Source of the DNA: Ensifer sesbaniae | Lineage (GTDB): Bacteria > Pseudomonadota > Alphaproteobacteria > Rhizobiales > Rhizobiaceae | Length of the DNA stretch: 64,000 nt | Direction: 5' to 3' | Assembly (NCBI RefSeq): GCF_013283665.1 | Contig: NZ_JABEKU010000003.1 | Coordinates: 68,029-132,028, forward strand | Shown here: piece by piece, positions 56,322 to 60,526 of the stretch | Layout: every line of letters begins with the position of its first letter | How positions within the stretch are numbered: position 1 is the stretch's first letter | Translations under genes and position numbers: made by a program | Notes under the pieces: generated by a model | Told to the model about the DNA's origin: nothing | Database searches by the model: none | What the model saw: the letters and a program-made list of their open reading frames with translations, nothing else

Positions 56322-56751
56322 CGTCAGGCTCCGTAACAGGCTCGAGAAAAGCCTTGCCGTCAGATGTGGATGAAAGTCAACTGGGAAGGTGGCGGGCTGG
56401 ATCGCTGCGCCGATCCAGGGCCGATCGCCTGGGAAACGCCCTCTGAAAAGGGCAGGAAATCGCAGGTAATTCTTTAAGTTCGAGTAACCATCCTGCACGC
56501 AAGTTTGGGATCGTCCGCCATTATCGTAGAATTGCCAAAGTTGCAGCCGCGCCCCTTTATTGTGCGGATACCTATGTTTGGTTGCAGAAACCGACTGTTG
56601 TTCAGCGCGCTTCGCACTACTGAGTTGAACTCTCGGGTCTTACCGGCGCGCCCGGCGATTTTTCTGGGATTCGATACTTTTTTCGGGGCGTTAGACGAAA
56701 TCATTCGTTAAGTCATCACCCTTAACAATCCGGTAAACCGGAGCTTGGTTC
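56322..56751. other. Intergenic region between glutaminase and GGDEF-EAL genes
   Basis: 430 bases without a supportable gene; divergent promoters must lie here. Near the GGDEF-EAL start there are two TTAA words ten bases apart (56708-56725), close to but not matching the CtrA spacing. Confidence 0.35.
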
Positions 56752-59061
56752 ATGATGCGACCTGGACAGAGCGCTCTTCCGACTGACGTGTATCTGTCAT
56801 CCGTGAGCTCGCTCTACGAACATCGCAAGACGTTGCTGATCGGCATGTTGTCGCATGTCGTGACGTTCCTGCTCGTCTATCTCAAGACCAGTGATCCGCT
56901 TTATCTCGCCTGTTCCGGCGCGATCTTCGTGTTCTGGGCGCTGCGCAATCTCGATATGGCGCGGTTCGACCGGCAGGATTTCGCCAATGCCGACCGGGCG
57001 ATGGTGCGCAAATGGGAGAACCGCTACATCGTCGGTGGCGTCAGCGTCACGCTCACCTGCGGCATCGCCTGCGGCTATGCCATTGCCGTCAGCCGGGATT
57101 CCTTTTCCGAGCTTGCCACCATTTCGGTGACACTGGCCTCGATGATCTCGCTCGTTGGGCGCAATTACGGCTCGGAGCGGGCCGTGCTTCTCCTATCGTC
57201 GTCTGCGTGCCTGCCGATCGTTATCGGCCTGATCACGTTGCAGGACGTGTTCATGCTGGTGCTCGCCTTGCTGATCCTGCCGTTCATCCTTTCCACCTGG
57301 ATGATGGCCAACAATGTGCGCGCCTTCCTCTATGAAAACGTGTTGGCGGCGCGCGAGATCGCGACCATTGCCGGCCAGTTCGACGCCGCGCTCAACAATA
57401 TGACGCATGGCTTGTTCATGCTGGATGGCGACGGCCGCGTCGTGGTGGCCAATGAGCGTGCGAGCGAATTGCTGGCGCTTGGCGACAGGACCGAACTCAA
57501 GGATTGGCTGCTCGATGACGTGATCCGCCGCGGCGGGCGGCGCATGCGGCTCGGTGCGGAGAAGACCAAGGCGATCTCGCGCCAGCTCGACCTGCTGCTC
57601 AAGGGCAAGCGCCCACGGGTATTGATCCCGGTCAGCGAGGAACTGCATCTCGAATTTTCGGCCAGCCGCCGCGACAATGGCGATATCGTGCTGATCTTCG
57701 AGGACGTGACGGCGCGCGTGCAGGCGGACAAGCAAATCTTGCACATGGTGCGTTTCGACAAGCTGACGGAGTTGCCGAGCCGCGACTATTTCGCAGAGCT
57801 GGTCGTGGCCGCCGCAAGCGGCGACGAGAAGGAGGACCGGCTCGTCGGCCTGATGGTCCTCGACGTCACCGAGTTCAAGCATGTCAACGACATGCGCGGC
57901 CACATCGTCGGCGACAAGCTGCTGCAGGCGATTGCCGGCCGGTTGAAGGCGCTCGCCGGCGACGATGCGATTGCGGCGCGACTGATGGGCGACGAGTTCG
58001 TCGTGTTCTTTCCGAACAAGGCCGGCGTGGCCGATCTGGAAGAGCAGATGCGTGGGCTTCACACGGATCTGCGCGGCACCTACGTTGCCGGCGGCTTCAC
58101 CTTCAACATGACCGTGAGCGCGGGCTTCGTCATCGCATCGAACGTGGATCTGAAACTCGAAGACCTGCAGATCAAGGCGGATCTTGCGCTTTCGGAAACC
58201 AAGCTGCGCAACCGGGGCGGCTGCACAGCGTTCGAAGCCGAGATGGACGCCCGCTATGTCGACCGTCAGAAGCTCAAGGCCGACCTGCGTGAGGCGATCA
58301 ATGCGCAGAGCCTGACACTCTCCTACCAGCCGATGTTCGCGCCGGGCGGCGGCCGGGTCGAGTGCTGCGAGGCGCTGGCGCGCTGGACACATCCGGAGCG
58401 CGGGCCGGTGCCGCCGAACGTCTTCATCCAGCTCGCCGAGGAATTGGGGCTGGTCACGCAGATCACACGTTTCGTGCTCGATCGGGCCTGCCGGGATTGC
58501 ATGGACTGGCCGAACGATGTGTCCGTCTCCGTCAACCTCTCGGTTCTCGACCTTCGCAGCAGCGAGATCGTCACGATGGTCACGGATGCCCTTCAGGCAA
58601 CCGGCCTCGATGCTTCGCGGCTGCATCTGGAAGTGACTGAAAGCTGCCTGATGGACGAGCCCCTCAAGGTGCAGGCGATCCTGCGCGAGCTGCGTGGCCT
58701 CGGCATCACTATTGCCATCGACGATTTCGGCACCGGTTATTCGAGCCTCAGCTATCTCGATGCCCTCCCGGTCGACATCATCAAGATCGATCGCTCCTTC
58801 GTGCGCAACATCCGCGAGGATTCGCGCCGCTTCAAGCTCCTGCGCGGGACGGCCAATCTTGCCCGTGCCCTCGGCCTGCGCATCGTCGTCGAAGGGGTCG
58901 AGACGGCCGATCAGCTACAGCTGATCACCGAGCACAATTGTGCCGATTTGATACAGGGCTTTGTCTTTGCCGCCCCCATGCCTGCCTCTGCCATTGCGAC
59001 GCTTTGCAAGAACGGTGTGCCAAAACGAGGCACGAAACCCGGCAGCAAGCGCATCGCCTGA
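56752..59061 (+). CDS. Membrane GGDEF-EAL protein, probable c-di-GMP phosphodiesterase
   Basis: 769 residues. Five or six membrane segments in residues about 25-195, a PAS-like domain (about 210-325, FDAALNNMTHGLFMLDGDGRVVVANERASELL), a GGDEF domain (about 330-495) and an EAL domain (about 510-755). The GGDEF signature is altered to MGDEF (residues about 411-415), so cyclase activity is doubtful. The EAL motifs are intact: CCEALARW, SVNLSVLDL, LEVTESCL, IDDFGTGYSSLSYL, IKIDRSFV and VVEGVET. It should therefore degrade c-di-GMP to pGpG, possibly with the GGDEF as a GTP sensor. The FeeM-type acyltransferase follows on the same strand. Confidence 0.93.
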   Translation: MMRPGQSALPTDVYLSSVSSLYEHRKTLLIGMLSHVVTFLLVYLKTSDPLYLACSGAIFVFWALRNLDMARFDRQDFANADRAMVRKWENRYIVGGVSVTLTCGIACGYAIAVSRDSFSELATISVTLASMISLVGRNYGSERAVLLLSSSACLPIVIGLITLQDVFMLVLALLILPFILSTWMMANNVRAFLYENVLAAREIATIAGQFDAALNNMTHGLFMLDGDGRVVVANERASELLALGDRTELKDWLLDDVIRRGGRRMRLGAEKTKAISRQLDLLLKGKRPRVLIPVSEELHLEFSASRRDNGDIVLIFEDVTARVQADKQILHMVRFDKLTELPSRDYFAELVVAAASGDEKEDRLVGLMVLDVTEFKHVNDMRGHIVGDKLLQAIAGRLKALAGDDAIAARLMGDEFVVFFPNKAGVADLEEQMRGLHTDLRGTYVAGGFTFNMTVSAGFVIASNVDLKLEDLQIKADLALSETKLRNRGGCTAFEAEMDARYVDRQKLKADLREAINAQSLTLSYQPMFAPGGGRVECCEALARWTHPERGPVPPNVFIQLAEELGLVTQITRFVLDRACRDCMDWPNDVSVSVNLSVLDLRSSEIVTMVTDALQATGLDASRLHLEVTESCLMDEPLKVQAILRELRGLGITIAIDDFGTGYSSLSYLDALPVDIIKIDRSFVRNIREDSRRFKLLRGTANLARALGLRIVVEGVETADQLQLITEHNCADLIQGFVFAAPMPASAIATLCKNGVPKRGTKPGSKRIA

Positions 59062-59195
59062 CGCTGCGACCCCAAATTCCGTCCTGTTCTGACGCTGCCC
59101 ACTCCACAGCAAGTTTTTGATTAGTAAGGATAAATACATCCCATTTTGACGCGCATCGCTCTACGTCGATCGATTTAATTCACGAATTCTTAGGG

Positions 59196-59211
59196 TTAAC
59201 AGAAAGTTAAC
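59196..59211 (+). promoter_or_regulatory. CtrA box 1 (TTAA-N7-TTAAC)
   Basis: TTAAC at 59196, six spacer bases, TTAAC at 59207: exactly TTAA-N7-TTAA. Upstream of the acyltransferase gene, 64 bp (six helical turns) from box 2. Confidence 0.7.
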
Positions 59212-59259
59212 GGTGAACTGTTCCGTTTTGCGGTTGCCGCTCCATTTCCCGTCAATAGG

Positions 59260-59275
59260 TTAACGATTTGTTAAC
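59260..59275 (+). promoter_or_regulatory. CtrA box 2 (TTAA-N7-TTAACC)
   Basis: TTAAC at 59260 and TTAACCAT at 59271, seven bases between the TTAA words; this is the full alphaproteobacterial CtrA consensus. It ends 16 bases before the acyltransferase start codon, overlapping or adjoining its ribosome site, a position that would allow repression or autogenous-style blocking. Confidence 0.75.
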
Positions 59276-59291
59276 CATTGAGGTCTGGAAT

Positions 59292-60065
59292 ATGGATGAG
59301 ACGGTTCGCCAGGCGGAGCCTGGGCGTTTTTCTGAAAAGCTGATGCAATTGCTCGATCGTGTCGAATATCGGCGGGTCGAAACCGGCGAGGACATGGAGG
59401 ACATCGCGCGGCTGCGCTACAAGGCCTACAAGTCCGTCAATCTGATGGAGTTGACGGGCTCGACGCTGATCGATGATCTCGACTTCGACAGTCACGCCTA
59501 TGTCTTCGGCATCTATCTCGACGAGAGCCTCGTCAGCACCGTGCGCGTACATCACGTGACGCCGGCGCATCGCGCCAGCACGTCGGGCCTGATCTTCGGC
59601 GCGGAGATCGACGCGTTCCTCGATGCCGGCATGGTCCTGGTCGATCCGGGTCGATTGGCCGTCGATCCAGATGTCATCGGTGACGAGATGCGGGCGCTTC
59701 CCTACCTGACGCTTCGCCCGGTCGCCATGGCCTGCGAATACTTTTCCGCCGACCGTTGCCTGACGGCCTGCCGGCCGCGCCACACCGCCTTCTACAAGCG
59801 CATTTTCGCCTCGGAGACCGTGGTCGCCAAGCGCGAGAACCTGGGGGTCTACAATGCCGACGGTGCCTTGCTCGTGGCGCAGGTGAGGGGGCAGCGGCCT
59901 TCGATCCTCGACCGCTATCCGATCTTCGATTCAGAGCCTTTCGAACGCCGCATGATGTTTGCCGATCGCAGTGAGGTGCCGTTCGCGCCGTTGACGATCC
60001 TGCCGACCGCGCGCATGGCGCAAACCGGCTATGGTCGCTCCTACCGAACTTCCGTCTTCCGCTGA
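59292..60065 (+). CDS. FeeM-type N-acyl amino acid synthase-like acyltransferase
   Basis: 257 residues. The LuxI/FeeM-like GNAT fold is suggested by DIARLRYKAYKSVNLMELTG, HAYVFGIYLDESLVSTVRVHHVTPAHR, DAGMVLVDPGRLAVDPDV, and ALPYLTLRPVAMACEYFSADRCLTACRPRHTAFYKRIF. FeeM proteins take acyl chains from acyl-ACP and join them to tyrosine or other amines; rhizobial members make signalling or membrane lipids of mostly unknown structure. Cytoplasmic. Start 59292 has gagg eight bases upstream; a TTG at 59268 would overlap CtrA box 2. It follows the GGDEF-EAL gene by 230 bases and has its own CtrA-type control region. Confidence 0.8.
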   Translation: MDETVRQAEPGRFSEKLMQLLDRVEYRRVETGEDMEDIARLRYKAYKSVNLMELTGSTLIDDLDFDSHAYVFGIYLDESLVSTVRVHHVTPAHRASTSGLIFGAEIDAFLDAGMVLVDPGRLAVDPDVIGDEMRALPYLTLRPVAMACEYFSADRCLTACRPRHTAFYKRIFASETVVAKRENLGVYNADGALLVAQVRGQRPSILDRYPIFDSEPFERRMMFADRSEVPFAPLTILPTARMAQTGYGRSYRTSVFR

Positions 60066-60258: not shown

Positions 60259-60309
60259 ATGACCAAGGGTTACGCCGTGGCATTCAGGGAGAATTTGAAC
60301 GATGGCTGA
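60259..60309 (+). CDS. 16-residue leader ORF overlapping the oxidase subunit IV start
   Basis: MTKGYAVAFRENLNDG, ATG at 60259 with an excellent aggag site five bases upstream; its stop codon lies inside the next gene's start region (ATG at 60302). Overlap could couple translation of subunit IV. May also be chance; length too short for family assignment. Confidence 0.35.
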   Translation: MTKGYAVAFRENLNDG

Positions 60310-60526
60310 GCATCATTCTGGACCGGTCGATGTGGGAGCCCCGATGGACTATCCGGAGCACGAGAAAACCTACCGCATGTTCCTGAGCGCATCGAAGTAC
60401 GGCACGCTGTTTTGCGTGGCGCTGCTGATTGCGATGGCTGCCGCATTCTTCACGACGATGGGCTTCTTCTCCTCGCTCGTGCTCTTCATTCTGCTCAACG
60501 TCGCAGGTTTCTTCTTCCTGCGCTAA
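60302..60526 (+). CDS. aa3-type cytochrome c oxidase subunit IV
   Basis: 74 residues, MDYPEHEKTYRMFLSASKYGTLFCVALLIAMAAAFF, with two close hydrophobic stretches forming one or two membrane helices. The DYPEHEKTY motif before the helix is diagnostic of the small alphaproteobacterial subunit IV that caps the aa3 oxidase. The other oxidase genes are elsewhere; placement next to pntA is typical for alphaproteobacteria. Two hairpins (60547-60572, 60575-60590) follow. Confidence 0.9.
   Translation: MAEHHSGPVDVGAPMDYPEHEKTYRMFLSASKYGTLFCVALLIAMAAAFFTTMGFFSSLVLFILLNVAGFFFLR

Follow-up and report, generated by a model that had tools for sequence, protein, structure and literature searches.

A FeeM-type acyltransferase gene behind two conserved TTAA-N7-TTAA boxes is a candidate member of the CtrA regulon in Ensifer

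Two exact TTAA-N7-TTAA boxes lie upstream of a gene for a FeeM-type acyltransferase (feeM) in Ensifer sesbaniae. Because of the motif, its conservation and the controls described below, we regard it as likely that both sites are genuine CtrA operators and that phosphorylated CtrA directly controls the transcription of feeM. Binding of CtrA, as well as its sign and timing at this promoter, we infer from comparison of sequences. The gene is a new, deeply conserved candidate for the CtrA regulon, of interest above all because a gene for a c-di-GMP enzyme is linked to it, and the arrangement suggests that the cell cycle controls a fatty-acyl product made next to that enzyme.

The two boxes and their conservation

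The window, i.e., the whole 64-kb stretch of DNA analysed here, spans G000:C3:68029-132028 and carries on the + strand the genes for a membrane-PAS-GGDEF-EAL protein of 769 aa (56752-59061; PF00563, PF00990 and PF12860), the FeeM-family GNAT-fold N-acyltransferase of 257 aa (59292-60065) and an aa3-type cytochrome oxidase subunit IV (coxIV; 60302-60526; PF07835), a neighbour outside the proposed system. These are followed by a gene that we take, from its sequence, to be pntA. A gap of 230 bp separates the GGDEF-EAL gene from feeM, and both boxes fall within it on the + strand: the distal box TTAACAGAAAGTTAA at 59196-59210 and the proximal box TTAACGATTTGTTAA at 59260-59274, with their first bases 64 bp apart. 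The sequence-only reading had found both sites and their offset, albeit with each end overshooting onto the next C (59211 and 59275). As it had also pointed out, the proximal box runs on into TTAACCAT (59271-59278), and 16 bases separate 59275 from the ATG at 59292. A Shine-Dalgarno sequence, GAGG, was read at 59280-59283 (+ strand), where the alignment of the relatives has GGGG in the majority. No GANTC was found in the gap. Separately, a terminator-like hairpin followed by a T run was noticed at 59309-59323, within the first codons of feeM, but is uninformative, as one such structure was found versus 1.1 in shuffled sequences.

The claim that the pair exceeds chance was borne out. Exact TTAA-N7-TTAA occurs twice in the 64-kb window, both times before feeM, versus 0.03 sites expected, and none of 100 shuffles reached two. 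When the 250 bp before feeM, which are richer in AT, were shuffled 20,000 times on their own, the probability of at least one site was 0.0074 and that of at least two was 0.00005. On the scale of the whole genome (6.9 Mb) the enrichment is mild, with 41 sites versus 31 for the reversed-pattern control (1.3 times). A lone site thus means little, and it is conservation rather than any single count that carries the case.

Alignment of the upstream region across Ensifer genomes, proposed as a check along with the original observation, made the motif finding much stronger than one sequence could show: the feeM protein was found in all 16 genomes of the genus, and all 16 keep both boxes at the constant offset of 64 bp, the distal box standing at a similar position in the relatives. 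The gene is present in 20 of 33 genomes of the sister genus Sinorhizobium, and 18 new loci from these (which, together with L033, were covered, the split gene of G220 being left out) carry the distal box in 17 cases and the proximal box in 16. An alignment of 35 Ensifer/Sinorhizobium sequences gives 99.5% conservation for the TTAA columns, versus 82% for the N7 spacers and 68% for everything outside the TTAAs. The same alignment exposed two further conserved blocks on the + strand, TTTTGCGGTTGCCG between the boxes (59226-59239; most columns at 90% or above) and GTCAATAGG abutting the proximal box (59251-59259; 8 of 9 columns at 90% or above), which may be promoter contacts.

In wider samples, the feeM protein was found in 139 of 199 genomes of the family and in 48 of 249 of the order; of 337 genomes sampled across the class (E <= 1e-15), two had it, the window's own and one other from the order. 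Among the named loci (the best 80 of 382), at least one box occurs within 250 bp of feeM in 68; other spacers score far lower in the same 80 loci (N5, 4; N6, 10; N8, 2; N9, 8). With the line between distal and proximal placed at -50, a division that depends on the called start codons, 30 of these loci have both boxes, 26 the distal box alone, 12 the proximal box alone and 12 neither. Boxes near -31 recur in other genera. The three neighbouring genes of the named loci served as controls and were empty throughout, with no box before the GGDEF-EAL gene (0/79), coxIV (0/80) or pntA (0/69).

A family-wide sample, composed of the window's locus plus 85 of 136 matching genomes from outside the genus (mostly the higher-scoring ones, with 15 same-genus loci left out), showed a box before feeM at 44 of 86 loci, L108, which ends at a contig edge, being entered as box-free; shuffles gave a mean of 0.75 and a maximum of 4. 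Outside the family, the box occurs at 12 of 20 loci, which represent eight further families of the order (20 of 38 matching non-family genomes), versus a mean of 0.074 and a maximum of 1 in shuffles, and no box precedes the GGDEF-EAL gene in the 15 of 19 order-level loci with enough flanking sequence. Neither coxIV nor pntA was found in the fetched flanks of these 20 loci. The exact box is missing from 12 of the 80 best named loci, 42 of the 86 family loci and 8 of the 20 order-level loci.

Two points did not survive wider comparison. The boxes had been described as lying in phase, which stands within Ensifer/Sinorhizobium (64/10.5 = 6.1 turns) but not elsewhere, where successive boxes are also 35, 55, 78 and 80 bp apart, although the 35-bp pairs may be non-homologous to the pair in the window and their division into distal and proximal depends on the called start codon. 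We therefore reject helical phasing as support for joint action outside these two genera. Likewise, we examined whether a one-mismatch near-box at 56722-56736, ahead of the GGDEF-EAL gene, might be a third CtrA site, and rejected it, since it is not conserved: an exact box is found at its position in none of 16 relatives (15 of the genus and one of the sister genus) and in none of the 79 named loci. A half-site, TTCGTTAA, near 56722-56736 is nevertheless conserved in the relatives' loci L068-L083.

CtrA in this genome and the sign of control

The genome encodes CtrA at G000:C3:307914-308585, which scores 426 bits against NF045991 (cut-off 350), a model exceeded in just 1 of 14 control genomes. 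Intended as a positive control, the genome's own ctrA locus contains no exact box and a single one-mismatch site, versus 0.24 expected. We scanned proteins beside the genome's other exact boxes, 27 of the 39 that flank N7 sites, chosen by hand and mostly near the site, and 9 of the 27 are of kinds typical of CtrA targets: two flagellins, a FliN-type protein, an OmpR-like regulator near the flagellins, minC, ftsK, a HAMP protein, a DUF1465 protein and a BTLCP (HvyA-type) protein. The DUF1465 protein is presumably RcdA, and HvyA has a link to CtrA. A further 11 of the 27 are of other kinds, among them a transglycosylase, a phasin, MutL, a GNAT protein and outer-membrane proteins, and 7 gave no Pfam hit. 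The distance from site to called start is 41 bp for minC and 140 and 233 bp for the flagellins.

Several of these genes recur in published work. The sections consulted of a study on Sinorhizobium meliloti place CtrA at flaA-C, mcp, minCD and rcdA, with minCD repressed and flaA activated (PMC4433202), and the full CtrA motif of Caulobacter is given as TTAA-N7-TTAA in part of PMC4287350. In Agrobacterium tumefaciens, TTAA-to-AATT changes derepressed two promoters, one of them that of dgcB, where the site lies at -52 (PMC7003649, in part), and the transglutaminase homologue HvyA takes part in the cell-cycle control of the Caulobacter capsule (PMC4241560, in part). The feeM promoter thus resembles the CtrA regulon of Caulobacter, S. 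meliloti and Agrobacterium in its exact full box, in the CtrA encoded by the same genome and in the occurrence of the same box at flagellin, minC, ftsK and rcdA-type genes, but differs in that its target is a FeeM-type acyltransferase. A box alone is no proof, as the same sections on S. meliloti report that rem has a predicted CtrA motif yet is neither bound nor CtrA-dependent, and that the rcdA and cpdR1 promoters are bound without any change in transcript on depletion (PMC4433202).

feeM is absent from the three genomes closest to S. meliloti 1021 (96% over a stretch of pSymB), and none of them gives a match to GGDEF-EAL at E <= 1e-100; the S. meliloti ChIP-seq was therefore probably unable to reveal this target. 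Among the matches listed in literature searches on S. meliloti locus tags, on FeeM in Alphaproteobacteria and on CtrA together with acyltransferases or autoinducers, there was no report of this gene, the supplementary ChIP-seq tables of PMC4433202 lying outside their scope.

How CtrA would act on feeM can be considered in the light of Caulobacter, for which the sections consulted of PMC4287350 give a position rule: full sites activate when their first base is at about -35 to -39, half-sites over the -10 element repress, and ctrA P3 is taken to be repressed by a full site at -14. By this rule, the distal box would serve a transcription start near 59231-59235 and the proximal box one at about 59295-59299. 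The latter start lies past both the Shine-Dalgarno sequence (59280) and the ATG (59292), so the proximal box more likely represses or blocks transcription. In the likeliest layout, the distal box would lie upstream of the core promoter and activate, and the proximal box would act as a repressing site or a roadblock, positioned either on the transcription start or within the leader. Two such opposed sites might confine expression to intermediate CtrA activity, as in a band-pass. A scan for the sigma-70 consensus before feeM gave no match (0.5 in shuffles) and was uninformative, which leaves the start site and the roles of activator and repressor as guesses. Cell-cycle-timed production of an acylated metabolite, as the sequence-only reading had it, is putative in both timing and product.

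A second TTAA element and alternative explanations

Comparison of the upstream regions revealed a second arrangement, TTAA-N2-TTAA, which precedes feeM at 68 of the 86 loci in the family sample and at 66 of the 80 named ones (the best 80 of 382). In the named sites the two middle bases are always GG, CC or CG (34, 28 and 4, respectively), hence our notation TTAA-SS-TTAA; in the family set the same holds for 66 of 71 sites, the other five having TG, TA, AG, AT or AA. The element, seen in one relative as TTAAGGTTAA, does not match the standard CtrA arrangement, yet no element is more widespread in the family sample. It often occurs together with the N7 pattern: a further TTAA stands 7 bases before it (TTAA-N7-TTAA-SS-TTAA) at 44 of 66 named loci, and the distal box of the relatives often lies inside this wider element. 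When partners on either side are counted (TTAA before; TTAA or TAAA after), 52 of the 66 have one at the N7 distance. TTAA-SS-TTAA may be a third CtrA half-site or a site for another protein. It is rare in the window's own genome as a whole, with 2 sites versus 12 for the reversed-pattern control; one (L164 1501-1510) is near a membrane transport gene and the other (L165 1501-1510) near genes for PAS_5 (PF07310) and rhomboid proteins. Among the matches listed in a literature search with literal TTAA-SS-TTAA strings, no title concerned this element.

This element is the basis of an alternative that we judge unlikely, namely that the promoter is read chiefly by another regulator, one specific for paired TTAA half-sites (TTAA-SS-TTAA with its flanking TTAA), CtrA perhaps sharing or borrowing the sites. 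The N2 arrangement outnumbers the N7 pair in the family sample (68 versus 44 of 86), its middle bases are strictly restricted at the 66 of 80 named loci that have it, and it is still present in 11 of the 12 named loci that lack an exact N7 box, all of which speaks for this alternative. The frequent N7 partners of the element, by contrast, suggest that it may be a third CtrA half-site. Moreover, the window and its eight closest relatives of the genus lack TTAA-SS-TTAA altogether and keep both N7 boxes, and in the order-level loci the balance is reversed, N7 occurring in 12 of 20 and N2 in 2.

The remaining explanations appear weaker still. If CtrA bound the promoter with an effect on transcription that is nil or too small to matter, feeM would resemble the rcdA and cpdR1 promoters of S. 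meliloti, whose transcripts did not change on depletion in the part of PMC4433202 consulted; we hold this to be very improbable, because a silent site would not need TTAA columns kept at 99.5% across 35 sequences, and because the boxes recur before feeM in other families of the order. That the sites are chance occurrences or ordinary AT-rich intergenic DNA gains some credit from the genome-wide excess of just 1.3 times over the reversed control, but is hardly credible given the conservation, the preference for the N7 spacer and the empty controls at neighbouring genes. Direct control of feeM by CtrA is accordingly the reading that we prefer.

The FeeM-type enzyme and its PAS-GGDEF-EAL partner

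The identification of the gene product as a FeeM-type acyltransferase was upheld: it scores 135.4 bits against PF21926 (cut-off 27), and its predicted fold best matches FeeM. In the AlphaFold2 model (pLDDT 82.9, built with 40 sequences), FeeM (PDB 2g0b) was recovered with a Foldseek E value of 8.5e-11 and aligned over 179 residues with a Z of 19.1 and an rmsd of 2.7, the next match having a Z of 14.6. Fold comparison alone revealed FeeM, as sequence searches of solved structures gave no match with the single protein and three, at E 0.6-1.0, with the 40-row profile. R42, D61, D64 and R85 are invariant among the 40 sequences, in what we take to be a resemblance to the active-site pattern of LuxI and FeeM. 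The protein thus belongs to the same Pfam family as the FeeM N-acyl amino acid synthase, but identity over the aligned core is just 16-18%, and synthesis of N-acyl amino acids is here putative. It also shares a GNAT-related fold with the LuxI-type acyl-homoserine lactone synthases (LasI, Z 14.5; RpaI, Z 14.6), whose Z values lie clearly under that of FeeM, and no LuxI-family Pfam hit was obtained at E 0.001. In the fee biosynthetic cluster, FeeM is accompanied by the carrier protein FeeL; no acyl carrier protein was detected among three scanned neighbours of feeM here (GGDEF-EAL, cytochrome oxidase subunit IV and Peptidase_C26). The reaction catalysed is probably the transfer of a fatty acyl group to an amine. 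In G007 (L031/L032) and G220, feeM is broken into two frames; in G220 (L264/L265 and L272/L273) the GGDEF-EAL gene is split too, which may reflect decay or an assembly error.

The PAS-GGDEF-EAL gene is a conserved partner. All 80 of the named loci (the best of 382) have it upstream of feeM on the same strand, at a distance of at most 500 bp in 79 of them (2.2 kb in the exception, L233), as do 19 of 20 order-level loci, despite differing downstream genes; in the family sample it was detected, irrespective of orientation, in the flanks fetched for 79 of 86 loci. EAL, DDFGTG and EGVET are retained in all 79 aligned partner proteins, that of the window included, 2 of 81 frames having been left out as short. 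The GGDEF site of the same 79 reads MGDEF in 55, VGDQF in 10, MGDQF in 7, VGDEF in 2 and GGDEF in 3, two falling outside the eight forms listed. These motifs suggest that the partner is an active phosphodiesterase with a degenerate cyclase domain. Its N-terminus contains several hydrophobic segments and gave no Pfam hit. Nevertheless, five Sinorhizobium genomes (L267-L271) have the GGDEF-EAL gene directly beside coxIV and lack feeM, so the two genes are linked but not strictly co-dependent. Seven Sinorhizobium genomes, including those nearest to S. meliloti 1021, have neither feeM nor a GGDEF-EAL match (E <= 1e-100; the incomplete G240 was left out).

The FeeM-type enzyme probably shares a pathway with the adjacent protein, a probable c-di-GMP phosphodiesterase. 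The arrangement recalls RpfF/RpfR of Burkholderia and Cronobacter, in which an enzyme gene of the acyl-signal type stands beside a PAS-GGDEF-EAL gene, the signal in our case being putative. The synthases differ, the one here having a FeeM/GNAT fold and RpfF being described as an enoyl-CoA hydratase in the part of PMC4698668 consulted, and the partner here, unlike RpfR, has a hydrophobic N-terminus. At most, therefore, feeM and the GGDEF-EAL gene work like the RpfF/RpfR pair; they are not a member of that system. It is attractive to speculate that they form an acyl-signal cassette of Rhizobiales, in which the FeeM-type enzyme would make an acyl-amide signal, the membrane-PAS-GGDEF-EAL protein would sense it and degrade c-di-GMP, and CtrA would switch on synthesis for a limited phase of the cell cycle, the distal box activating and the proximal one repressing. 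As a whole this proposal is tentative and rather doubtful. If it is true, the cassette would parallel RpfF/RpfR but employ an unrelated synthase, and would tie together the stage of the cell cycle, an acyl signal and c-di-GMP.

Apart from this speculation, the lasting linkage between feeM and the gene for a c-di-GMP enzyme points to a defined pathway. A CtrA target that is present in several families of the order, is absent from the genomes nearest to S. meliloti and lies outside the published reports we found would add the synthesis of acyl metabolites to a regulon of motility and division.
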